DNA of 64,000 bases from Morococcus cerebrosus (GTDB lineage: Bacteria > Pseudomonadota > Gammaproteobacteria > Burkholderiales > Neisseriaceae): NCBI RefSeq assembly GCF_022749515.1, contig NZ_CP094242.1, positions 868,001 to 932,000 of the forward strand, read 5' to 3'. This document shows positions 40,145-56,175 of the stretch, piece by piece. Both the position numbers and the translations under genes were made by a program. Positions within the stretch are counted from its first letter, which is position 1. Every line of letters begins with the position of its first letter. The notes beneath the pieces are model-generated. The model saw only the letters and a list, made by a program, of their open reading frames with translations. It was not told the origin of the DNA and did no database searches.

Positions 40145-41374
40145 GAGACCTTTGCAAAATTCCCCAAAATCCCCTAAATTCCCATCAAGACATTTAGGGG
40201 ATTTCCCATGAGCACCTTCTTCCGGCAAACCGCACAAGCCATGATCGCCAAACACATCGACCGCTTCCCATTATTGAAGTTGGATCAGGTGATTGATTGG
40301 CAACCGATCGAACAATACCTGAATCGTCAAAGAGCCCGTTACCTTCGAGACCACCGCGGCCGTCCCGCCTATCCACTGTTGTCCATGTTCAAAGCCGTCC
40401 TGCTCGGACAATGGCACAGCCTCTCCGATCCCGAACTCGAACACAGTCTCATCACCCGCATCGATTTCAACCTATTTTGCCGTTTTGACGAACTGAGCAT
40501 CCCCGATTACAGCACCTTATGCCGCTACCGCAACTGGCTGGCGCAAGACGACACCCTGTCCGAATTGCTGGAACTGATTAACCGCCAACTGACCGAAAAA
40601 AACCTAAAAGTAGAGAAAGCATCCGCCGCCGTCATTGACGCCACCATTATTCAGACCGCCGGCAGCAAACAGCGTCAGGCCATAGAAGTCGACGAGGAAG
40701 GACAAGTCAGCGGCCAAACCACACCGAGTAAGGACAAAGATGCCCGTTGGACAAAGAAAAACGGCCTCTACAAACTCGGTTACAAACAACATACCCGTAC
40801 CGATGAGGAAGGCTATATCGAGAAACTGCACATCACTCCTGCCAATACCCATGAGTGCAACCATCTGTCCCCTTTGTTGGAAGGCATTGCCGAAGGTACG
40901 ACCGTCTATGCCGACAAAGGCTACGACAGCAAGGAAAACCGGCAACATCTGAAAGAGCATCAGTTGTTAGACGGCATTATGCGCAAAGCCTGCCGCAACC
41001 GTCCGCTGACGGAAGCGCAAACCAAACGCAACCGATATTTGTCGAAGACCCGTTATGTGGTCGAACAAAGCTTCGGTACGCTGCACCGTAAATTCCGCTA
41101 CGCCCGGGCAGCCTATTTTGGTCTGCTCAAAGTGAGTGCGCAAAGCCATCTGAAGGCGATGTGTTTGAACCTGTTGAAAGCGGCCAACAGGCTAAGTGTG
41201 CCTGTTGCAGCCTAAAAGGCGGCCCGGATGCCTGATTATCGGGTATCCGGGGAGGATTAAGGGGGTATTTGGGTAGAATTAAGGAGTGATTGGGGGCGGA
41301 AACAGCCGAAAACAGCCGAAAACCTGTGTTTGGGGTTTCGGTTGTCGGGGGAAAAGGAATTTTGCAAAGGTCTC
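40145..41374 (+). mobile_element. IS5-family element, IS1106-like
   Basis: The ends GAGACCTTTGCAAAATTCC (40145) and its complement (41356-41374) are 19-bp perfect inverted repeats. A TTCCT duplication flanks both sides (40140-40144 and 41375-41379), so the insertion is simple and probably recent. It has one transposase gene. Confidence 0.93.
40208..41215 (+). CDS. IS1106-like (IS5 family) transposase
   Basis: 335 residues, full length. The DDE residues sit in AVIDATIIQTAG, TVYADKGYDSKEN and TRYVVEQSFGTLHRKFRYARAAYFG. The N-terminal helix-rich part contains YPLLSMFKAVLLGQWHSLSDPELE, typical of IS5-group transposases. The frame is intact, so transposition competence is likely. Confidence 0.93.
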   Translation: MSTFFRQTAQAMIAKHIDRFPLLKLDQVIDWQPIEQYLNRQRARYLRDHRGRPAYPLLSMFKAVLLGQWHSLSDPELEHSLITRIDFNLFCRFDELSIPDYSTLCRYRNWLAQDDTLSELLELINRQLTEKNLKVEKASAAVIDATIIQTAGSKQRQAIEVDEEGQVSGQTTPSKDKDARWTKKNGLYKLGYKQHTRTDEEGYIEKLHITPANTHECNHLSPLLEGIAEGTTVYADKGYDSKENRQHLKEHQLLDGIMRKACRNRPLTEAQTKRNRYLSKTRYVVEQSFGTLHRKFRYARAAYFGLLKVSAQSHLKAMCLNLLKAANRLSVPVAA

Positions 41375-44918: not shown

Positions 44919-47423
44919 GTGAATTTCGACTATATAGCCCACGCTCGCCAGGACTCATCAAAAAATTGGCATTCCCATCCCCTGCAAAAACATCTACAAA
45001 AAGTCGCCCAACTCGCCAAGCGTTTTGCAGGGCGTTATGGAGAGTTGTTTGCCGAATATGCGGGGCTTTTGCACGATTTGGGGAAATTTCAGGAAGCTTT
45101 TCAGAAATATATCCGTAATGCATCCGGCTTTGAAAAAGAAAATGCCCATTTGGAAGATGTCGAATCTACCAAGTTGCGCAAAATTCCGCATTCCACTGCC
45201 GGTGCCAAATATGCAGTAGAGCACCTTAATCCGTTTTTTGGGCATTTGCTGGCGTATCTGATTGCCGGGCATCATGCTGGGCTGGCAGATTGGTATGACA
45301 AAGGCAGTCTGAAAAACCGTCTGCAACAGGCGGATGACGAGTTGGTGGCATCTTTGTCGGGTTTGGTGGAAAGCAGTTTGTCCGAAGATTTTTTCCGGTT
45401 ATCAGATGATGATCTGAAGCGGGATTTTTTTGCATTTTGGAAAGAAGGAGCAAAGCTGGAAGAATTGCATATTTGGCTGCGTTTTCTCTTTTCCTGTTTG
45501 GTGGATGCCGATTTTTTGGATACCGAAGCCTTTATGAACGGCTATGCCGATGCGGATACTGCGCAGGCTGCCGGATTGCGGCCAAAATTTCCCAGTTTGG
45601 ATGAGTTGCACCGACGATATGAGCAATATATGGCGCAACTTCATGAGAAATCAGATAAAGATTCATTCTTAAACCAAGAACGCCATGCCATTTTGCAGCA
45701 ATCTTTTTCTGCCGCAGAAACCGACCGCACTTTGTTTTCTTTAACCGTGCCGACCGGTGGCGGTAAAACTTTGGCGAGCTTGGGGTTCGCTTTGAAGCAC
45801 GCGCTGAAATTCGGCAAAAAACGTATTATCTATGCTATTCCTTTCACCAGTATTATCGAGCAGAACGCCGATGTTTTCCGCAAAGCATTGGGCGATGACG
45901 TGGTATTGGAACACCACAGCAATTTGGAAGTGAAAGAAGACAAGGAAACTGCGAAAACCCGCCTTGCCACGGAAAATTGGGACGCGCCGCTGATTGTTAC
46001 CACCAACGTGCAACTGTTTGAAAGCCTGTTTGCGGCGAAAACCAGCCGCTGCCGCAAGATTCACAATATTGCCGATAGCGTGGTGATTTTGGATGAGGCC
46101 CAGCAGCTTCCGCGCGATTTCCAAAAGCCGATTACCGACATGATGCGGGTGCTGGCGCACGATTACGGCGTTACCTTTGTGTTGTGCACGGCGACTCAGC
46201 CCGAACTTGGCAAAAATATCGACGCATTCGGGCGCACTATTTTGGAAGGCCTACCGGACGTGCGCGAGATTGTGGCGGATAAAATTGCCTTATCGGAAAA
46301 ACTGCGCCGCGTCCGCATCAAAATGCCGCCGCCAAACGACGAAACACAAAGCTGGCAGGAAATTGCCGATGAAATTGCTGTCCGTCCGTGCGTTTTGGCA
46401 GTAGTCAATACGCGAAAGCACGCCCAAAAACTCTTTGCTGCCCTGCCTTCTGACGGCATCAAACTGCATTTGTCCGCCAATATGTGCGCCACACACCGTA
46501 GCGAAGTGATTGCGTTGGTTCGCCGATATTTGGCACTGTATCGCGCAGGCAGCCTGCACAAGCCCTTGTGGCTGGTCAGCACGCAGTTGATTGAAGCCGG
46601 CGTAGATTTGGATTTCCCTTGCGTGTATCGGGCGATGGCAGGGCTGGACAGCATTGCCCAAGCGGCGGGGCGGTGCAACCGCGAAGGCAAACTGCCACAG
46701 TTGGGCGAAGTGGTCGTGTTCCGTGCCGAAGAAGGCGCGCCCAGCGGCAGCCTGAAACAGGGGCAGGACATTACCGAAGAGATGCTGAAAGCAGGGCTGC
46801 TTAACGACCCACTTTCCCCGTCGGCATTTGCCGCATATTTTCGCCGGTTTAACGGCAAAGGCGATGTGGACAAACACGACATTACAAGACTTTTAACGGC
46901 AGAATCATCAAATGAAAATCCGCTGGCAATTAAATTCTGCACCGCTGCCGAACGTTTCCGCCTGATTGATAACCAAGGCGTGACACTCGTTGTGCCGTTT
47001 ATCCCATTGGCTCATTGGGAAGAAGGCGGCATTCCGCAAATTATCAAAGCAAACGAGTTGGACGATTTTTTCAGACGACATTTGGACGGCGTGGAAGTTT
47101 CAGAATGGCAGGATGTTTTAGACAAACAACACTTTCCTCAGCCAGCCGACAATTCCTTTGGGCAAACTGACTGCCCGCCGCTGCCTGAGCCGTTTGAAAG
47201 TTGGTTCAAATTTTTAGAAAACGATCCACTCAAACACAAATGGGTTTACCGCAAATTACAACGCTACACGATTACCGTGTATGAACACGAACTGAAAAAG
47301 TTGCCTGAACATGCCGTTTTTTCCAGAGCGGGGTTGCTGGTGTTAGATAAGGGCTATTACAAAGCCGTGCTTGGCGCGAATTTTGATGATATGGCTTGGC
47401 TGCCTGAAAATTCGGTTTTATGA
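44919..47423 (+). CDS. cas3: CRISPR-associated helicase/nuclease Cas3 (type I-C)
   Basis: 834 residues starting at GTG behind GGAGA. The HD nuclease domain comes first (HSH at 18-20, LLHDLGK with H52/D53, then AGHHAGLADWYD). The helicase follows: Walker A VPTGGGKTLASLGF (~280), DEAQ box VVILDEAQQLPRDFQ (~392), FVLCTATQP, and motif VI AQAAGRCNREG. It is recruited by target-bound Cascade to unwind and degrade DNA. It is separated from cas5c by 232 bp that hold a terminator, a pseudo-repeat and a new promoter, so it appears to be expressed apart from the Cascade genes. Confidence 0.97.
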   Translation: MNFDYIAHARQDSSKNWHSHPLQKHLQKVAQLAKRFAGRYGELFAEYAGLLHDLGKFQEAFQKYIRNASGFEKENAHLEDVESTKLRKIPHSTAGAKYAVEHLNPFFGHLLAYLIAGHHAGLADWYDKGSLKNRLQQADDELVASLSGLVESSLSEDFFRLSDDDLKRDFFAFWKEGAKLEELHIWLRFLFSCLVDADFLDTEAFMNGYADADTAQAAGLRPKFPSLDELHRRYEQYMAQLHEKSDKDSFLNQERHAILQQSFSAAETDRTLFSLTVPTGGGKTLASLGFALKHALKFGKKRIIYAIPFTSIIEQNADVFRKALGDDVVLEHHSNLEVKEDKETAKTRLATENWDAPLIVTTNVQLFESLFAAKTSRCRKIHNIADSVVILDEAQQLPRDFQKPITDMMRVLAHDYGVTFVLCTATQPELGKNIDAFGRTILEGLPDVREIVADKIALSEKLRRVRIKMPPPNDETQSWQEIADEIAVRPCVLAVVNTRKHAQKLFAALPSDGIKLHLSANMCATHRSEVIALVRRYLALYRAGSLHKPLWLVSTQLIEAGVDLDFPCVYRAMAGLDSIAQAAGRCNREGKLPQLGEVVVFRAEEGAPSGSLKQGQDITEEMLKAGLLNDPLSPSAFAAYFRRFNGKGDVDKHDITRLLTAESSNENPLAIKFCTAAERFRLIDNQGVTLVVPFIPLAHWEEGGIPQIIKANELDDFFRRHLDGVEVSEWQDVLDKQHFPQPADNSFGQTDCPPLPEPFESWFKFLENDPLKHKWVYRKLQRYTITVYEHELKKLPEHAVFSRAGLLVLDKGYYKAVLGANFDDMAWLPENSVL

Positions 47424-47424
47424 A

Positions 47425-47450
47425 AAATGCCCCTATTTCTAGGGGCATTT
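47425..47450. terminator. bidirectional terminator between cas3 and the pseudo-repeat
   Basis: AAATGCCCC and GGGGCATTT form the stem with an 8-nt loop and T runs on both sides. It starts 2 bp past the cas3 stop and also ends the minus-strand crRNA-like unit. Confidence 0.85.
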
Positions 47451-47506
47451 TGCCATTTTTAACATGGCATTATAGTTTCAACACACAGCCGCCCAAAAGC
47501 GACTGA
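47425..47506 (-). ncRNA. putative crRNA-like regulatory RNA: degenerate CRISPR repeat, pseudo-spacer, terminator
   Basis: On the minus strand 47506-47475 matches the array repeat at 28 of 32 positions, and its last 20 bases, including the GTGTGTTGAAAC handle, are perfect. All four differences are C-to-T; two turn stem G-C pairs into G-U, one is in the loop, one is outside, so the hairpin survives. The next bases (from 47474: TATAATGCCATGTTA and on) act as a spacer, and a strong hairpin built on ATGCCCC/GGGGCAT with TTTTT ends it at about 47425. There is only one repeat, so Cas5c would make a single 5' cut. A weak promoter (TTTCCA, 16 bp, GATTAT) can be read at 47540-47513. It resembles CreR/CreA-type RNAs that steer Cascade to cellular promoters. 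Confidence 0.75.
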
Positions 47507-47594
47507 CCGCTAATAATCCATTTAATCAATTGTATGGAAAGAGGTTTAGCGTAGGCATATTTTACAGTTTATTGAAAAAATAAGCGAATCACAC

Positions 47595-47624
47595 TTGACA
47601 TGAGTAGCATGGTAATACTAATAT
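47595..47624 (+). promoter_or_regulatory. sigma-70 promoter of the cas5c operon
   Basis: A consensus -35 TTGACA (47595-47600) and -10 TAATAT (47619-47624) are 18 bp apart. The predicted transcript start is near 47631, about 25 bp before cas5c. The -10 box lies inside the predicted pseudo-spacer target. Confidence 0.8.
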
Positions 47625-47636
47625 GGCTTTATAGAA
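47609..47636 (-). promoter_or_regulatory. predicted Cascade binding site directed by the crRNA-like RNA
   Basis: On the minus strand a TTC PAM (47636-47634) is followed by TATAAAGCCATATTA. The pseudo-spacer starts TATAATGCCATGTTA. Positions 1-5, 7-11 and 13-15 match; 6 and 12 do not, and those are the bases flipped out in Cascade-bound crRNA. Beyond position 15 the match fades, so binding without full R-loop and without Cas3 cleavage is expected. Confidence 0.72.
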
Positions 47637-47655: not shown

Positions 47656-48300
47656 ATGAGTTTCATTTTAGAAATTAGCGGTGAGCTGGCGTGCTTTACC
47701 AGGCCTGAGCTCAAGGTGGAACGGGTTAGTTATCCCGTAATTACACCATCAGCAGCACGAAATATCCTAATGGCAATCTTGTGGAAACCCGCCATTCGAT
47801 GGCAGATACAGAAGCTCGAGATTCTCAAACCGATTCAGTGGACGAATATCCGCCGTAACGAAGTGGGAATCAAAATGAGTGAACGCAGCGGCTCGCTCTA
47901 TATTGAAGACAACCGCCAGCAGCGCGCATCCATGCTGCTGAAAGACGTTGCCTATCGCATCCACGCCGATTTTGACATGACAAGTGAAGCAGGCGAGGGC
48001 GACAACTACGTCAAATTTGCCGAAATGTTCAAACGGCGCGCAAAAAAAGGGCAGTATTTTCATCAGCCTTATTTGGGTTGCCGAGAGTTTCCCTGCCATT
48101 TCAGGCTGCTTGAAAAGGTTGAAGACGGTTTGCCGCGCGAAGACATCACCCAAGATTTCGGCTTTATGCTGTACGACATGGATTTCAGCAAATCCGACCC
48201 GCGCGATTCCAATAACGCCGAACCCATGTTTTACCAATGCAAAGCGATAAATGGCGTAATTACCGTGCCCCCAGCTAATAGCGAGGAGGTGAAACGATGA
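47656..48300 (+). CDS. cas5c: Cas5c (Cas5d), crRNA-processing subunit of type I-C Cascade
   Basis: 214 residues from MSFILEISGELACFTRPELKVERVSYPVITPSAARNIL, the typical I-C Cas5 start. In this subtype there is no Cas6; Cas5c itself cuts the repeat hairpin and stays on the 5' handle. The conserved QWTNIRRNEVG and YRIHADFDM segments lie in the RNA-binding core. The gene overlaps cas8c by 4 bp (ATGA). Promoter and ribosome site (GAGGAG) are directly upstream. Confidence 0.96.
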   Translation: MSFILEISGELACFTRPELKVERVSYPVITPSAARNILMAILWKPAIRWQIQKLEILKPIQWTNIRRNEVGIKMSERSGSLYIEDNRQQRASMLLKDVAYRIHADFDMTSEAGEGDNYVKFAEMFKRRAKKGQYFHQPYLGCREFPCHFRLLEKVEDGLPREDITQDFGFMLYDMDFSKSDPRDSNNAEPMFYQCKAINGVITVPPANSEEVKR

Positions 48301-50060
48301 TTCTGCACGCACTCACCCAATACTACCAACGCAAAGCCGAAAGCGATGGTGGTGTTGCCCCGGAAGGGTTTGAAAACAAAGAAATCCCGTTCATTATTGT
48401 TATAGACAAACAGGGTAATTTTATTCAGCTGGAAGATACCCGTGAGCTGAAAGGTAAGAAGAAAGTTGGCCGCACTTTTTTGGTGCCGAAAGGTTTAGGC
48501 AGGAGCGGTTCAAAATCCTACGAAGTAAGCAACATTTTGTGGGATCACTACGGTTATGTGCTTGCCTATGCCGGAGAAAAAGGGCAGGAGCAGGCGGATA
48601 GACAGCATGCCAGCTTTACCTCCAAAGTAAACGAATTGAAACAGGCGCTGCCCGATGATGCAGGTGTTGCCGCCGTTGCCGCCTTTTTGGCTTCTGCGGC
48701 AGAAAAAAGCAAAGCCATGCAGGCTCCAAATTGGGTGGAATGTGCCAAAGTCAAAGGCTGTAATCTCAGCTTCCGCCTAGTGGATGAAGCGGTAGATTTG
48801 GTTTGCCAGTCAAAGGCGGTTCGGGCATATGTGAGTCAAGCCAATCAGGCGCAGTCCGATAACGTCCCAAAAGGCATTTGCCTGGTAACGGGCAAGCCTG
48901 CGCCGATTGCGCGGTTGCATAACGCCGTGAAAGGCGTGAACGCCAAGCCCGCCCCGTTTACATCGGTAAATCTGTCGGCTTTTGAATCATACGGCAAAGA
49001 GCAGGGCTTTATCTTTCCCGTGGGCGAGCAAGCCATGTTCGAATATACCACCGCCTTGAACACTCTGCTTGCCGGTAAAAACCACTTTCGTATCGGCGAT
49101 GTAACGGCTGTATGTTGGAGCGCGAAACCGACTCCGTTGGAAGAGAGTCTTGCTTCGCTGATTAGCGGCGGCGGCAAAGACAATCCCGATGAGCATATCG
49201 ATGCCGTTAAAACCCTTTATAAAAGCCTGTACAACGGCCAATACCAAAAACCTGACGGCAAAGAAAAATTCTACCTTTTAGGCTTATCGCCTAATTCCGC
49301 GCGCATTGTCGTCCGCTTTTGGCATGAAACCACCGTTGCCACCTTATCAGAAGGTATTGCGGCGTGGTATGACGATTTGCAGATGGTGCGCGGCGAAAAC
49401 TCGCCGTATCCTGAATATATGCCGCTGCCGCGCCTGCTGGGAAATTTGGTGTTGGACGGCAAAATGGAAAACCTGCCGTCTGATCTAATCGCCCAAGTAA
49501 CCGATGCCGCACTTAACAACCGAGTTTTACCCGTCAGCCTGTTGCAGGCTGCTTTGCGGCGCAACAAGGCGGAACAGAAAATTACCTATGGCAGGGCAAG
49601 TCTGCTTAAAGCCTATATCAATCGCGCAATCCGCGCGGGTCGTCTGAAAAACATGAAGGAGCTAACTATGAGCTTAGATAGAAATCGCCAAGACATCGGC
49701 TACGTGCTAGGGCGGCTGTTTGCCGTGCTGGAAAAAACACAGGATGAAGCCAATCCCGGCTTAAATGCCACTATTGCCGACCGCTATTTCGGTTCGGCAA
49801 GTAGCACGCCGATTGCCGTATTCGGTACTTTGATTCGTTTGTCTAAACATCACCTGAGTAAACTGAATACGGAAAAATACAGGGGAAAACGAATTTTTTT
49901 AGAAAAACTTTTTCAAGAAATTATCGGAAAAATAGATAATTTCCCCAATCATTTGGATATTAACCATCAAGTTTTATTTGGGATCGGTTATTACCACCAA
50001 AAACAAGATTTTTTCCAATCCAACTCAACTGAAACAATTAAACAGGAGCAAACGCTATGA
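48297..50060 (+). CDS. cas8c: Cas8c (Csd1), large subunit of type I-C Cascade
   Basis: 587 residues of the Csd1 family: [37 protein letters not shown] at the N-terminus, then [37 protein letters not shown] and [18 protein letters not shown]. It recognises the PAM and helps recruit Cas3. An in-frame internal start at 49668 should also yield Cas11c. It overlaps cas5c and cas7c by 4 bp each, indicating coupled translation. Confidence 0.96.
49668..50060 (+). CDS. cas11c: Cas11c, small subunit translated from within cas8c
   Basis: An ideal ribosome site (AAGGAGCTAACT) stands right before an in-frame ATG at codon 458 of cas8c. The product of 130 residues starts [29 protein letters not shown] and is helical. 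Type I-C systems are known to make the small subunit by internal initiation in cas8c; size and position fit. Confidence 0.85.
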
Positions 50061-50908
50061 CTATTGAAAAACGCTACGACTTTGTCTTTTTATTTGATGT
50101 GCAAGACGGTAATCCTAACGGCGACCCCGACGCAGGCAACCTGCCGCGTATCGACCCACAAACCGGCGAAGGCTTGGTAACCGATGTTTGCCTGAAACGC
50201 AAAGTCCGCAACTTTATCCAAATGACCCAAAATGGCGAACATCACGACATCTTTATCCGCGAAAAAGGCATTTTGAACAACTTAATTGACGAAGCCCACG
50301 AGCAAGAAAACGTAAAAGGCAAAGAAAAAGGCGAGAAAACCGAAGCCGCCCGCCAATACATGTGCAGTCGTTATTACGACATCCGCACATTCGGCGCAGT
50401 GATGACCACCGGCAAAAATGCAGGACAAGTGCGCGGTCCCGTGCAGCTGACCTTCTCTCGTTCCATAGACCCTATCATGACCCTAGAACACAGCATTACC
50501 CGCATGGCGGTTACCAACGAAAAAGATGCCAGCGAAACCGGCGACAACCGCACTATGGGTCGCAAATTCACTGTCCCCTACGGCTTATACCGCTGCCACG
50601 GCTTCATTTCTGCCCATTTTGCCAAACAAACAGGCTTTTCCGAAAACGATTTAGAGCTGCTTTGGCAGGCACTTGTCAATATGTTCGACCACGACCATTC
50701 CGCCGCACGCGGACAAATGAATGCACGCGGGCTTTATGTGTTTGAGCACAGCGGCAGCTTGGGCGACGCACCTGCTGATAGCCTGTTCAAACGCATTCAG
50801 GTAGTCAAAAAGGGCGGAGTGGAAGTGGTAAGGAATTTTGACGACTACCTTGTCAGCGTGGACGATCAAAATCTTGGCGAAACCAAGCTGCTGCGTAAAT
50901 TAGGCTGA
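50057..50908 (+). CDS. cas7c: Cas7c (Csd2), backbone subunit of type I-C Cascade
   Basis: 283 residues. The N-terminal RRM-like strand [28 protein letters not shown] is the family signature, followed by [14 protein letters not shown] and [18 protein letters not shown]. Several copies polymerise along the crRNA spacer; each clips out every sixth base. Good ribosome site (AGGAGCAAACGCT) within the end of cas8c. Confidence 0.97.
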
Positions 50909-50910
50909 AA

Positions 50911-51561
50911 ATGACCAAACTTTCAGTCGAAAACCCAAGGGGAATTCAGGACACGCGCCTGATTCCTCTTTCTGCCTTGCAACACTATGCCTTCTGCCCG
51001 CGCCAATGTGCGTTGATTCACAACGAGCAGGCGTGGGCGGAGAACTATTTGACCGCGCAGGGCAAGGTGCTGCATGAGCGAGTGGATTCGGGCGAGCCGG
51101 AAACGCGCAAGGGCGTGCGCTTTGAGCGGACGGTGCATGTGTCGGCGGAGAAACTGGGCATCAGCGGCGTGTTGGATTTGGTAGAAATGGAAACGAAAAC
51201 AGGTCGTCTGAAACCTGTGGAATATAAGCGAGGCAAGCCCAAACCCGACCCGATGGACGAAATTCAGCTTTGCGCCCAAGGCTTGTGCTTGGAAGAAATG
51301 ACGGGGCAAACCATCTTCGAGGGCGCGCTGTGGTATATGCAAACCCGCCATCGCGTCCCCGTCGTGTTTTCAGACGACCTGCGCGCCCAAACACTCGCCA
51401 CCATCGCCGCTGTGCGCGAACTCCTAAACAGCGGCCAAACGCCGCCGCCCGACTACGGCAAACGCTGCAAAGCCTGCTCGTTGCTGGAAATTTGTCAGCC
51501 GGAGTTGTTTGGGAAACGGGATAGGAGTGTGGGGTATGTGGAGGGGTTGTTTGGGGAGTGA
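50911..51561 (+). CDS. cas4: Cas4 (type I-C), spacer-acquisition nuclease
   Basis: 216 residues. The first Fe-S Cys is in YAFCPRQCALIHNEQAW; the RecB-like nuclease has GVLDLVEM, LKPVEYKRGKPK and DEIQLCAQGLCLEE; three more Cys lie in CKACSLLEICQPELF. It trims pre-spacers and selects the PAM with Cas1-Cas2. It starts 2 bp after cas7c. A DUS lies at codons ~97-100. Confidence 0.96.
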   Translation: MTKLSVENPRGIQDTRLIPLSALQHYAFCPRQCALIHNEQAWAENYLTAQGKVLHERVDSGEPETRKGVRFERTVHVSAEKLGISGVLDLVEMETKTGRLKPVEYKRGKPKPDPMDEIQLCAQGLCLEEMTGQTIFEGALWYMQTRHRVPVVFSDDLRAQTLATIAAVRELLNSGQTPPPDYGKRCKACSLLEICQPELFGKRDRSVGYVEGLFGE

Positions 51562-51628: not shown

Positions 51629-53077
51629 ATGTCTATTAAAATAGATAAATTTAATAATGAAATTATACCGTTATGGAATGAGGTTCAGAACGTTGTTAAT
51701 GGAATTAATGAAACACTTGTATCTGAATCATATATAGAAAATTTTGCTTATCTAAAAAAAATAACTGCTTTTTTGTCAGAAGCAATGTTTTGTATTGATG
51801 CAGATTATTTGCCTACGAGTTTGTTAAGTAATGTTAAAGCCTATTTAAATGAACTAAAAAATAATCTAAATTACAGCCAAAATTATTCAAACTCATATGT
51901 TCAAAATATAGAAAATAATTTAGATAATTTGTTGCAAATAGTATTCCCTTTTGTTCTACATAAAGGAAAAGCGATTAAAGGGCTGAGAGTAGGTTTGAAT
52001 GAATATTCAAAAACTATAAATGAACATGTGGAAAATGGATTTTCAGAAATAAAACTAACTCAAGAAAATGCAATTAAAATTAAATCTGAATTAGAGAATG
52101 AGTTAGATGAGTTTCAGAGAGTTAGAACTGAAATAGAAGAATATAGGGATTCAATATTTTCTAAGGATGGTATAAAAGATAATGTTGAAAAATTATTGAG
52201 TGATTCAGAGTCAAAATTATCTGAGATAGATGAGCTTCATAATTCAATTTATGAAGAAGATGGATTAAAACAAAAAATTGATGAGTTCTATTCAAATATT
52301 TCTGATAAAAATAAAGAAATTAATGAATTGAAAGAGGATAGTTCAACTACTTTGCAAGGGCTATCGAATTTTTACGATAAAATTTTTGGCAAAGATGATG
52401 GGAATGGAAAGAAAGCAGGTGGTTTAAAGCAAGAAATTGACCAAAGAAGAAGTGATTTAGATGAGTTCAAACAGAAACAAGAAGAGAGATATAATGAGCT
52501 TAATAAACAAATAGAAAATTTACTTCCGGGCGCAACTTCTGCTGGGTTATCTAGTGCGTATAGTGAAATGAGAAATAAATTTAGTAAAAATGCAGGATGG
52601 TATGGGTGGGCATTCTATTTCTCATTGTTCGTTTTGTTTATTACTGTTTTGTGTATAAAAGATGTAATGTTAGTAAGAGATATTCCTTTAGATAAAGGAA
52701 TTTGGATTAGTCTTCTTGTACTATTAGGAAATTTTGCCGTGAAAATGCCGTTTATAATTCCGGCATTATGGCTAGTAATATTCATATCAAGAAGACGAAG
52801 TGAGGCAGAAAGATTGTCACAAGAGTATGTGCATAAAGAGGTTTTAGCTAAGTCATATGATAGCTATAAACAGCAAATTGAGAAACTATCTAAAAAAGAA
52901 CAAGAAGAGTTATTGCCTGTGCTAATGGAAGGTATGATTAAGGCTATTTCCTTAAATCCAGCAGAAACATTAGATAAAAAACATCAAAGTGATAGTCCTA
53001 TTTCAGAAGTTTTAAAAGATAAGAACTTTATAGATTCTATTGTGGATAAAATAAAAGGTTCTTCTTCCAAATCCTAA
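51629..53077 (+). CDS. coiled-coil membrane protein inserted between cas4 and cas1
   Basis: 482 residues, much more AT-rich than the cas genes. Residues ~1-130 are helical; ~135-310 is a long heptad-type coiled coil with internal repeats (EEYRDSIFSKDGIKDNVEKLL, HNSIYEEDGLKQKIDEFY, SNFYDKIFGKDDGNGKKAG in turn). Two membrane segments follow (WAFYFSLFVLFITVLCI, ~335; IPALWLVIFISRRRSEAERLS, ~390), then an acidic tail. GAGGA before ATG is a good ribosome site. No family is recognised. Same strand, snug fit (67 bp after cas4, 33 bp before cas1) and foreign composition suggest a captured accessory gene, perhaps a membrane-acting defence effector. Confidence 0.7.
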   Translation: MSIKIDKFNNEIIPLWNEVQNVVNGINETLVSESYIENFAYLKKITAFLSEAMFCIDADYLPTSLLSNVKAYLNELKNNLNYSQNYSNSYVQNIENNLDNLLQIVFPFVLHKGKAIKGLRVGLNEYSKTINEHVENGFSEIKLTQENAIKIKSELENELDEFQRVRTEIEEYRDSIFSKDGIKDNVEKLLSDSESKLSEIDELHNSIYEEDGLKQKIDEFYSNISDKNKEINELKEDSSTTLQGLSNFYDKIFGKDDGNGKKAGGLKQEIDQRRSDLDEFKQKQEERYNELNKQIENLLPGATSAGLSSAYSEMRNKFSKNAGWYGWAFYFSLFVLFITVLCIKDVMLVRDIPLDKGIWISLLVLLGNFAVKMPFIIPALWLVIFISRRRSEAERLSQEYVHKEVLAKSYDSYKQQIEKLSKKEQEELLPVLMEGMIKAISLNPAETLDKKHQSDSPISEVLKDKNFIDSIVDKIKGSSSKS

Positions 53078-53110: not shown

Positions 53111-54124
53111 ATGCGCAAACTGCAAAACACGCTCTATATCACCACCCAAGGCAGCTATCTGCATAAGGAGCGGGAGACGTTGGTGGTGGAGCAGGAGCGT
53201 AAAAAGGTGGCGCAGTTGCCGGTGCATTCCATCGGGCATATTTTCTGTTTTGGCAATGTGCTGGTGTCGCCGTTTTTGCTGGGATTTTGCGGTGAAAATA
53301 ATGTGAATTTGACGTTTTTTACCGAAAACGGACGTTTCTTGGGGCGGCTTCAGGGGCGGCAGAGCGGTAATGTGCTCTTGCGTCGGGCGCAGTATCGGGT
53401 GTCGGAGCAAAATCCCGTGCCGATTGCGCGCAATATCATTGCGGCGAAGATTCAGGCGAGTAAGCGGGTGCTTCAGCGGCAGATTCGCAATTACGGCGAG
53501 AATGAGGCGATTCAAAGTGCGGTCGATGCTTTGAACATTTCGCTGCGGCAGTTGAAGGGCGCGGCGGAGCTGGACATGGTGCGCGGCATTGAGGGCGACG
53601 CAGCGGCGCGTTATTTCGGCGTGTTCGGGCTGCTTTTGAGCGAAAAAAGCGGCTTTTCTTTTGACGGGCGTAACCGCCGTCCGCCCAGAGACGGGGTGAA
53701 CGCGCTCTTGTCGTTTGTGTACAGCATTCTGGGTAAGGACATCAGCGGCGCGCTGCAAGGCGTGGGGCTGGACCCGCAGGTGGGTTTTCTGCACGCCGAC
53801 CGGCCGGGGCGCGACAGTTTGGCGCAGGATATTTTGGAAGAATTCCGTGCGTGGTGGGCGGACAGGTTGGTGTTGTCGCTGATTAACCGCGGGCAAATCA
53901 AACCGCAGGATTTTGTTACCGAGGCAAGCGGTGCGGTAAACCTGAAAGCCGAGGCGCGTAAGCTCTTGTTTCAAGCCTTGCAGGCGAAAAAGCAGGAGAA
54001 AATTGTGCATCCATTTTTAGGCGAGGAAGTGGAAATCGGGCTGCTGCCGTATATTCAGGCGATGCTGTTGGCGCGGCACTTGCGCGGGGATTTGGTGGAA
54101 TATCCGCCGTTTTTGATGAGATAG
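53111..54124 (+). CDS. cas1: Cas1 (type I-C), CRISPR integrase
   Basis: 337 residues. N-terminal beta domain LYITTQGSYLHKERETLVVEQ; the alpha domain has the catalytic Glu in ELDMVRGIEGDAAARYF, His in QVGFLHADRPGRDSLAQDILEEFR, and Asp in the same helix. QNTLYITTQGSYLHKE is a I-C type start. AAGGAG precedes ATG. With Cas2 it inserts spacers at the leader end. A DUS hairpin (54131-54170) lies between cas1 and cas2. Confidence 0.97.
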   Translation: MRKLQNTLYITTQGSYLHKERETLVVEQERKKVAQLPVHSIGHIFCFGNVLVSPFLLGFCGENNVNLTFFTENGRFLGRLQGRQSGNVLLRRAQYRVSEQNPVPIARNIIAAKIQASKRVLQRQIRNYGENEAIQSAVDALNISLRQLKGAAELDMVRGIEGDAAARYFGVFGLLLSEKSGFSFDGRNRRPPRDGVNALLSFVYSILGKDISGALQGVGLDPQVGFLHADRPGRDSLAQDILEEFRAWWADRLVLSLINRGQIKPQDFVTEASGAVNLKAEARKLLFQALQAKKQEKIVHPFLGEEVEIGLLPYIQAMLLARHLRGDLVEYPPFLMR

Positions 54125-54198: not shown

Positions 54199-54492
54199 AT
54201 GCTGATGCTGATTACTTACGATATTTCGCTGGAAGATGCCGAAGGGCAGGCAAGGCTGCGGCGCGTGGCGAAATTGTGTCTGGACTACGGCGTGCGCGTG
54301 CAATATTCGGTGTTCGAATGCGACATCGCGCCAGACCAGTGGGTTGTTTTAAAAGACAAACTTTTGAAAACCTACAACCCCGAAACCGACAGCCTGCGCT
54401 TTTACCATTTAGGCAGCAAATGGCGGCGCAAAGTGGAACACCACGGCGCGAAACCGGCGGTGGATGTGTTTAAGGATACGTTGATTGTGTGA
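54199..54492 (+). CDS. cas2: Cas2 (type I-C)
   Basis: 97 residues: MLMLITYDISLEDAEGQARL with the ferredoxin-like first strand, VQYSVFECDIAPDQW and a C-terminal tail FKDTLIV. It forms the scaffold of the Cas1-Cas2 integrase. The array leader begins right after its stop. Confidence 0.96.
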   Translation: MLMLITYDISLEDAEGQARLRRVAKLCLDYGVRVQYSVFECDIAPDQWVVLKDKLLKTYNPETDSLRFYHLGSKWRRKVEHHGAKPAVDVFKDTLIV

Positions 54493-54681: not shown

Positions 54682-56175
54682 CCAGCCGCCTTCGGGCGGC
54701 TGTGTGTTGAAACCGTTTTTGATGGGTTTTTGTGCGGTTTTGTCGTTGCCAGCCGCCTTCGGGCGGCTGTGTGTTGAAACTGAAATAGTTATCGGCGACG
54801 TAGTTCAAGATGCCCCAGCCGCCTTCGGGCGGCTGTGTGTTGAAACTTTCGTAATACCCAAATCGCGGGCATCTTGTTCAATCCAGCCGCCTTCGGGCGG
54901 CTGTGTGTTGAAACATTTTCATATCTAACCCTTAAACAAGTAAATCAACCAGCCGCCTTCGGGCGGCTGTGTGTTGAAACAGCCTTTTGTACGGGGCTGG
55001 TCTGAGTTCAGCCTCCAGCCGCCTTCGGGCGGCTGTGTGTTGAAACATGCACCTCCCGAAAGGGCGGTTTTGTCAAAGCAATCCAGCCGCCTTCGGGCGG
55101 CTGTGTGTTGAAACCACGTTCAGGGTGTTGGTGCGGTCGAAAACCGCCCAGCCGCCTTCGGGCGGCTGTGTGTTGAAACAGGTCGTCTGAAAGACGCCGC
55201 AATCAAAAAAGCTCCAGCCGCCTTCGGGCGGCTGTGTGTTGAAACATTATCCTCAATTTGGCGAATAACTTTTGCTGCACCAGCCGCCTTCGGGCGGCTG
55301 TGTGTTGAAACTTCGCGGATGGCGAACATAACGGCTTTATTCAACCAGCCGCCTTCGGGCGGCTGTGTGTTGAAACAATCCTTATAAAGCCAAAAAGACC
55401 GAAACAGCAGAAGCCAGCCGCCTTCGGGCGGCTGTGTGTTGAAACACCTAATTGTAAATACCCGTGTTGATATACGGCCCAGCCGCCTTCGGGCGGCTGT
55501 GTGTTGAAACACTTGCGTATTCAGATCGGTGTAGCCGTTGCTGACTACCAGCCGCCTTCGGGCGGCTGTGTGTTGAAACTAATGAATTCGAGTCCTAAAA
55601 AACCAAGTCCATCCCAGCCGCCTTCGGGCGGCTGTGTGTTGAAACAAGAACATGGTAAAAATCGCAGCCCAATATTTTTTCCAGCCGCCTTCGGGCGGCT
55701 GTGTGTTGAAACTTTCAGTAGGAATTACAAGTTCGGGTATTCCATGCCAGCCGCCTTCGGGCGGCTGTGTGTTGAAACAGGTGGTTCAGACGACCTTAAC
55801 CAAAGCGACAGGCCCAGCCGCCTTCGGGCGGCTGTGTGTTGAAACTTTTTCCGATGTTTTGCCCTTTTTAAAATCCCTGCCAGCCGCCTTCGGGCGGCTG
55901 TGTGTTGAAACATCAATCAGATTGCACGAGGCGTTAGAAGTGTTCCCAGCCGCCTTCGGGCGGCTGTGTGTTGAAACGATGGTGCGGACGGCTGTGTATA
56001 GCAATAACTGCCCAGCCGCCTTCGGGCGGCTGTGTGTTGAAACCCATTTCTGCGCCGCGTCCTCTTGGGCGTAGTAGCCAGCCGCCTTCGGGCGGCTGTG
56101 TGTTGAAACCAGTGTGTATTTGTGTGTAAAGATTTTGACGTATCCAGCCGCCTTCGGGCGGCTGTGTGTTGAAAC
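54682..56175 (+). CRISPR. type I-C CRISPR array, 23 repeats and 22 full spacers
   Basis: Repeats of 32 bp run from CCAGCCGCC to GTGTGTTGAAAC, all identical by eye, at 54682, 54749, 54815, 54883, 54949, 55015, 55083, 55148, 55214, 55280, 55345, 55414, 55479, 55548, 55614, 55681, 55747, 55814, 55880, 55946, 56012, 56078 and 56144. Spacers are 33-37 bp. AGCCGCC and GGCGGCT form a 7-bp stem capped by TTCG, an unusually stable UUCG tetraloop in RNA; Cas5c should cut at its base and leave a GTGTGTTGAAAC-type handle. Spacers at 55180 and 55779 contain a complete DUS. After the last repeat only 24 bp of spacer-like sequence remain before the IS5 element. Confidence 0.99.

Follow-up and report, generated by a model that had tools for sequence, protein, structure and literature searches.

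In the available parts of the sources cited herein, CreR RNAs are described for type I and V-A systems as crRNA-like autorepressors whose guide is directed at the promoter of their cognate cas operon (review PMC12737573); the term I-C occurs 0 times in that review. The CreA antitoxin RNAs of CreTA and CrePA likewise employ a guide mechanism (PMC9458426, PMC12737573). RNA anti-CRISPRs (Racrs) consist of a solitary repeat unit and are also known for subtype I-C, in which crRNA processing is performed by Cas5 (PMC10651486). For the I-C Cascade of Neisseria lactamica the PAMs are TTC and TTT, expression is lowered when the complex is aimed at a −10 box, and a single repeat–spacer unit is functional without a second repeat (Geslewitz et al. 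2023, PMC10865793); the available part of that paper makes no mention of a natural guide element. A literature search returned no report of an I-C CreR in Neisseria among the matches listed, which is weak evidence, the subscription literature lying mostly outside its scope. The survey of predicted CRISPR-derived regulatory mini-arrays by Shmakov et al. 2023 is said to describe standalone repeats with guides that partly match cas or cargo promoters, and its abstract reportedly names two-repeat mini-arrays and cas8 promoters as frequent.

The window analysed herein (the whole 64,000-nt stretch of Morococcus cerebrosus DNA) carries, on the minus strand of the gap between cas3 and cas5c, an element that with a probability of roughly 0.85 encodes a CreR-type, crRNA-like autorepressor composed of one repeat, a guide and a terminator, through which the operon would be placed under negative feedback. 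This is considered the best reading because the guide fits the cas5c promoter, covaries with it in relatives and has almost no counterpart when anchors are scrambled. As with described CreR RNAs, the predicted product is crRNA-like and has a guide for the promoter of the cognate cas operon; it differs in belonging to subtype I-C, in having a single repeat and a terminator where a second repeat would stand, and in being encoded antisense between cas3 and cas5c, with the RNA-processing nuclease gene as its target. The mini-arrays of Shmakov et al. 2023 are likewise reported to have a standalone repeat with a promoter-matching guide, whereas the window element has one repeat and the cas5c promoter as its target. 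It is best read as an I-C addition to the established CreR kind.

The genome is a single contig of 2.57 Mb, and its type I-C locus lies on the plus strand in the order cas3 (44919..47423), cas5c (47656..48300), cas8c (48297-50060), cas7 (50057-50908), cas4 (50911-51561), a 482-aa gene (51629-53077), cas1 (53111-54124), cas2 (54199-54492) and an array of 23 identical 32-nt repeats (54682-56175). The chromosome has a further CRISPR array (1402652-1403461), which is distant from the cas genes and shares the repeat end of the first. With up to one mismatch, GGCTGTGTGTTGAAAC occurs 37 times in the genome, comprising the 23 repeats of the window array, 13 of the second array and the solitary repeat, against 0 for a reversed control. 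An IS5-family transposase gene lies near the locus (40208-41215), and the predominant uptake-sequence variant, AGGTCGTCTGAA (63 copies), is presumably the N. mucosa/sicca dialect.

Within the 232-nt gap between cas3 and cas5c, the solitary degenerate repeat occupies 47475..47506 on the minus strand and is, apart from the 23 array repeats, the sole match in the window with 10 or fewer mismatches. It matches the array repeat at 28/32 positions, the final 20 nt being identical and the 11-nt 5′ handle intact. All four mismatches are C-to-T changes: that at position 1 lies outside the stem, those at 5 and 9 turn C–G into U–G pairs, and that at 12 falls within the loop. The predicted 8-bp hairpin accordingly still folds, at −11.4 kcal/mol compared with −17.3 kcal/mol for the array repeat, and the surrounding 108-nt minus-strand stretch has a folding z of −6.1 (0/200 shuffles equally good). 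Following the repeat is a 23-nt guide, TATAATGCCATGTTAAAAATGGC, at 47452..47474, read 5′ to 3′ from 47474 downwards on the minus strand. These results bear out an earlier note, made from the DNA alone, which had described the 28/32 repeat with its identical final 20 bases and handle, the placement of the four changes and some 25 nt of spacer-like sequence. Its strong terminator fared less evenly. A terminator-like hairpin is present at 47424..47451, with TTTTT following on the minus strand, although the minus-strand call is by eye: a scan of the region identified two terminator-like hairpins (0.3 expected), both on the plus strand and one of them this hairpin, the minus-strand version being unlisted most likely because its T residues pair into the stem. 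On the plus strand the same hairpin may serve to end cas3 transcription. A putative weak promoter for the guide RNA, TTCGCT-18-TAAAAT, was located by eye at 47559..47588 on the minus strand; it lies under the threshold of the consensus scan, which did not list it, and a promoter of this type was also seen by eye in two related loci, L029 and L033. In the free guide RNA, part of the seed is predicted to be hidden in a small hairpin.

The candidate target lies on the opposite side of the gap, at 47618..47633 of the minus strand; together with its PAM (47618-47636) it is outside the region covered by the earlier note, which named no target. The sequence TATAAAGCCATATTA, read from 47633 downwards, directly follows a TTC PAM (47634-47636), which is proper to the subtype. 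Over guide nt 1-15, mismatches to the target occur at positions 6 and 12 only, leaving 13/13 matches at nt 1-5, 7-11 and 13-15. In type I effectors each sixth base is flipped out and not read, so that within nt 1-15 every readable base matches. The target spans the −10 box TAATAT (47619-47624) of a σ70-type promoter of the cas5c operon (TTGACA-18-TAATAT, 47595..47624, plus strand, 10/12 consensus), together with the likely start site of that promoter. A promoter scan found one such site in the region and shuffles give 1.1, so the promoter call rests on its position, cas5c being the first gene after it, and on similar promoters in relatives.

With TTC required, 0/20,000 dinucleotide shuffles of the 152-nt target stretch reached 13/13 (best 12, twice), and without a PAM 0/3,000 did so (best 12, six times). 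Across the 2.57 Mb genome, TTC followed by the seed occurs without mismatch solely at the cas5c promoter. The next-best places number two, each with 2 mismatches, and one of these is the guide itself, the locus of which is flanked by AAC, not a PAM. Places with up to 3 mismatches number 15, compared with 30 for a reversed control pattern. Of the two regulator types that the earlier note had put forward jointly, CreR and CreA, the former is upheld by this seed match and its TTC PAM. The guide mechanism is shared with CreTA and CrePA, but the space from the target promoter to cas5c contains no toxin gene: only about 30 nt (31) separate the end of the −10 box from the cas5c start codon, and no ORF of at least 80 aa is found in the gap. 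CreA is unsupported here because no toxin gene fits into this space, although a toxin encoded farther along the operon is conceivable.

By Cas5c similarity, the closest named loci belong to Pasteurellaceae and a Moraxella (80-90%). Amongst 46 Neisseria genomes (one per species), 27 hold a Cas5c relative, and besides the window only one, G022, is close (86-97% over two overlapping matches); its cas5c looks frame-shifted because the match splits into these two parts. The element is present on the minus strand in all five loci of this lineage with a cas3–cas5c gap of 193-233 nt, namely those of the window, Necropsobacter (L029), Glaesserella (L030), Aggregatibacter actinomycetemcomitans (L033) and Moraxella (L034). 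No guide element was found in L031, L032 and L036, of the same lineage, where the gap is 23-38 nt. A further close Cas5c, that of L192 (genome G470; 84% across residues 15-160), comes from a cas5c fragment that has been rearranged, with no cas3 in the fetched stretch and no pair.

In an alignment of the five loci, the handle, the TTC and the target position are invariant. The repeat stems vary in sequence, a hairpin being predicted in 5/5, and inspection by eye shows a terminator-like hairpin together with a run of T residues in 5/5. The guides, in the order given above, are TATAATGCCAT, TATGATGCTAT, CATGGTGCTAT, TATAACTCCAT and TATGATACCAT, and the targets TATAAAGCCAT, TATGAAGCTAT, CATGGAGCTAT, TATAAATCCAT and TATGAAACCAT, respectively, each preceded by TTC. 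The seed varies at 5/10 positions amongst these loci, and every guide nonetheless matches its own target at 10/10 of nt 1-5 and 7-11 (50/50 cells), compared with 5-9/10 for cross pairs; of the 120 possible guide–target pairings, one reaches the full score of 50, and this is the true one. Guide nt 6 is mismatched in all five, and in L034 nt 1-5 and 7-11 match with 0 of nt 13-16 doing so. Where the earlier note had looked to conservation of hairpin, handle and first 15 guide bases, the handle and the predicted hairpin are indeed kept, whereas the first 15 bases are not simply conserved but covary with the promoter. Random decay of the pseudo-repeat amongst close relatives, which the note had named as a refutation, is not what these loci show. 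In four of the five loci and in Pelistega (L035), the distance between the first target base and the −10 box of the best consensus-like promoter is 14-20 nt, the positions in relatives being best-of-window picks without a shuffle control; in L033 the scan found no consensus-like promoter at that position near the target.

It could be argued that the element is the leftover of a decayed array, or a chance match beside a terminator, given that it is a single copy with 28/32 identity. The A. actinomycetemcomitans locus (strain HK_961) might be cited in the same vein, as its cas8c is matched in part only and cas7 and cas4 were not found; since it keeps a perfect 10/10 pair despite this broken cas set, a guide–target pair alone is no proof of present-day activity. 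Retention in four other species, with guide and target changing together around an invariant handle and TTC and an unmoved target position, and with chance controls near zero, renders such an origin extremely improbable, in agreement with the earlier note's view that neither chance nor decay would leave this arrangement. Strain HK_961 has another I-C locus besides, L233, which carries a guide of its own.

Marginally less remote, and still very improbable, is that the solitary repeat yields a decoy RNA titrating Cas5c or Cas7, the guide sequence being irrelevant. Racrs, which have the same solitary repeat unit, act in this manner in I-C (PMC10651486, available part). They derive from phages and plasmids, however, whilst the window element lies in a chromosomal cas locus and its guide, by covarying with the promoter, appears to matter. 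A similarity search of phages with a 501-nt stretch retrieved no record, and one of plasmids retrieved a single record, within cas5c. Scanning of viral contigs with a 16-mer recovered 15 stretches, none of which contains a detected cas3 or cas5c; six carry an isolated repeat, and the fetched stretch of these six shows no target following TTC or TTT, even with 1 seed mismatch allowed. Two viral contigs (L237, 5100-5190, plus strand; L243, 2889, minus strand) show isolated ends resembling a repeat, with the hairpin GGCCCCTCACGGGGCC some 40 nt beyond, and could represent Racr-like elements.

Returning to the autorepressor, its distribution was surveyed in 109 I-C-like loci totalling 614,615 nt and reaching as much as 6 kb upstream of cas5c, assembled from Cas5c matches with the exclusion of duplicates (L002/L028 of L036; L108-L112, L138, L143), L069 and places in genomes G473 and G458; for eleven distant loci (L018-L027, L047) the scan covered 1.5 kb upstream. 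Under a strict rule (guide after TGAAAC, target after TTC, identity at nt 1-5 and 7-11), pairs occur in 16/109 loci, against an average of 0.22 and a maximum of 2 for 60 scrambled anchors. Replacing the PAM by each of the 63 other trinucleotides gave 16 matches in total, with 0-3 for each (GTT the most with 3; TTT 2). In a separate scan, a TTT match in L197, with its guide at −476 and its target at −3717, has the look of a chance event, as do L026 and L056, which came from a looser-filter scan of 107 loci. In 92/109 loci, cas3 lies upstream on the same strand as cas5c. No in-gap pair was found in the 40 loci with a gap of 12-86 nt, little room being one reason. The 52 loci in which the gap measures 150 nt or longer include 16 with an in-gap pair (TTGAAA[CT]/TTC; these partly differ from the strict 16), or 20 when TTC, TTT or TTA is accepted. 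For 59 scrambled anchors, the corresponding values are 0 in all with TTC and an average of 0.08 with the three PAMs; shifting the in-gap guide by 1-5 nt in either direction gave 0, by −6 gave 2 and by +6 gave 0. In the remaining 32/52 gapped loci the strict rule is not satisfied with any of the three PAMs; some of them pair with 1-2 seed mismatches and others not at all.

The periodic mismatch seen in the window recurs in 35 pooled pairs, in which the match fraction is 0.86-1 at nt 1-5 and 7-11, 0.34 at nt 6 and 0.40 at nt 12, these pairs being chosen by seed from strict and relaxed pairs alike and including L179, which is without a repeat hairpin and may be chance. It is 0.66-0.83 at nt 13-16 (partly selected) and averages 0.35 at nt 17-24. 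Two metagenome-assembled genomes (MAGs), of Phycisphaeraceae (L044) and Fusicatenibacter (L045), carry a repeat-guide and TTC-target pair in the gap, and the arrangement is therefore not restricted to Proteobacteria. In MAGs of Muribaculaceae and Porphyromonadaceae (L042, −2414/−2246; L043, −2413/−2245 relative to cas5c), with compact operons, guide and target are both positioned upstream of cas3.

Most likely, then, the solitary repeat gives rise to a small guide RNA that steers the CRISPR complex to its own cas promoter and lowers expression, a proposal drawn from sequence comparison. The RNA would be transcribed from the minus strand and cut by Cas5c at the base of the hairpin, and the resulting handle-guide RNA would join Cas5c, Cas8c and Cas7 to cover the −10 box and start site of the cas5c promoter, a position from which repression of cas transcription would be expected. 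Because pairing extends over some 15 nt and no farther, binding should not provoke cutting by Cas3. When free Cascade is plentiful, it would shut its own operon, beginning with the RNA-processing nuclease gene; the operon would be released once Cascade is drawn off by crRNAs or anti-CRISPRs. As Cas5 processes crRNA in I-C, the target promoter drives first the very gene needed for maturation of the guide. The cas3 gene lies upstream of the target promoter and outside its control.

The operon downstream of this promoter also contains a variable slot between cas4 and cas1, occupied by a different gene in each species of the lineage (window 51629-53077; L029 13970-15124; L030 14217-15785; L031 14556-15263; L032 14065-15834; L034 13996-15621) and absent from L035. 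In the window the cargo is a 482-aa coiled-coil, membrane-type protein with weak matches to LmuB (E 3e-8) and DndD (E 8e-5) in a defence library, DUF4407 being below the cut-off. Elsewhere the slot holds an HNH-like protein (by eye, L029), an OLD-like ATPase (L030), an AriAB/PtuA-like ATPase (L034) and unrecognised proteins (L031, L032).

Guides that point at cargo occur in a sister I-C lineage, with Cas5c identity of about 55-60%, comprising 42 loci, L155-L169 from Neisseria and L193-L216 with L232-L234 from the family of the Necropsobacter genome holding L029. A guide–target pair is listed for 18/42 of these, and none for 24/42. In 17 a plus-strand guide precedes cas5c by 81-162 nt, and the target is far upstream at the start of the cargo (L158, L159, L162, L163, L165, L167 and L169 in Neisseria; L193, L194, L202, L203, L209, L210, L211, L214, L232 and L233 in the other family). 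From the cas3 stop to the first target base the distance is 7-26 nt in 15/17 and 235 nt in L193; for L233, the fetched stretch of which showed no cas3, a gap of 3,720 nt was assumed as a guess. Pairs following the strict seed rule are those of L159, L163, L193 and L211 (TTC), L162 (TTT), and L167, L203 and L209 (TTA), the other nine having one or two seed mismatches. The best promoter-like pair has a −35 box beginning 8-13 nt beyond the first target base in 8/17 and not in 9/17, a comparison without control.

Amongst the loci scanned for it, recognisable cargo includes GajA and GajB of Gabija (L165), SIR2 with HerA (L169, L209), KwaA and KwaB of Kiwa (L202), PD-T4-4_A (L211), a PDC-M48B protein (L167), NA37 proteins (L203, L232), a type III restriction enzyme (L233) and DUF2188 (L158); for further cargo proteins in L162, L194, L203, L211, L232 and L233 no family was matched. 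L212 carries a DSR2-like protein as cargo, and its guide aims near cas5c. From the placement of the targets, guide binding in this lineage would repress the cargo, and the gap is possibly a CRISPR-controlled back-up defence slot for swappable genes. Such cargo-bearing loci look much like CreTA/CrePA, and the arrangement resembles CrePA in particular.

With similar guides aimed at cargo in a sister lineage, and a variable slot downstream of the target promoter in its own, the window guide might be thought mainly to restrain the cas4–cas1 cargo gene in the manner of CreA/CrePA, repression of cas being a by-product. The target promoter adjoins cas5c, however, and the cargo is the fifth gene after it; moreover, Pelistega (L035) has a guide–target pair with a cas4–cas1 spacing of 8 nt and no cargo. 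This account is regarded as unlikely, although less so than either a relic or a decoy, and feedback on the cas operon is retained as the preferred reading. Seen across both lineages, there are about even odds that type I-C has a general guide-RNA control layer, in which the window type would exert feedback on the nuclease gene and an operon with plug-in cargo, and the sister lineage would keep interchangeable defences (Gabija, Kiwa, SIR2-HerA, PD-T4-4 and others) silent while Cascade works, an anti-CRISPR thereby releasing a second line of defence.

If the main reading is true, a neisserial I-C system, of the kind already used for CRISPRi, has a built-in RNA brake on its own expression, which matters to tool builders. 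The element suggests that a single repeat with a terminator is enough as a natural regulator, and the covariation from species to species provides ready-made matched and mismatched guide–promoter pairs. The cargo loci suggest that I-C Cascade may guard whole defence systems, and that back-up immunity triggered by anti-CRISPRs becomes directly testable. Within those loci, the three pairs with a TTA PAM (L167, L203, L209) match at 16/16 nt, including positions 6 and 12, where most TTC targets are mismatched, possibly reflecting a tuning of binding strength.
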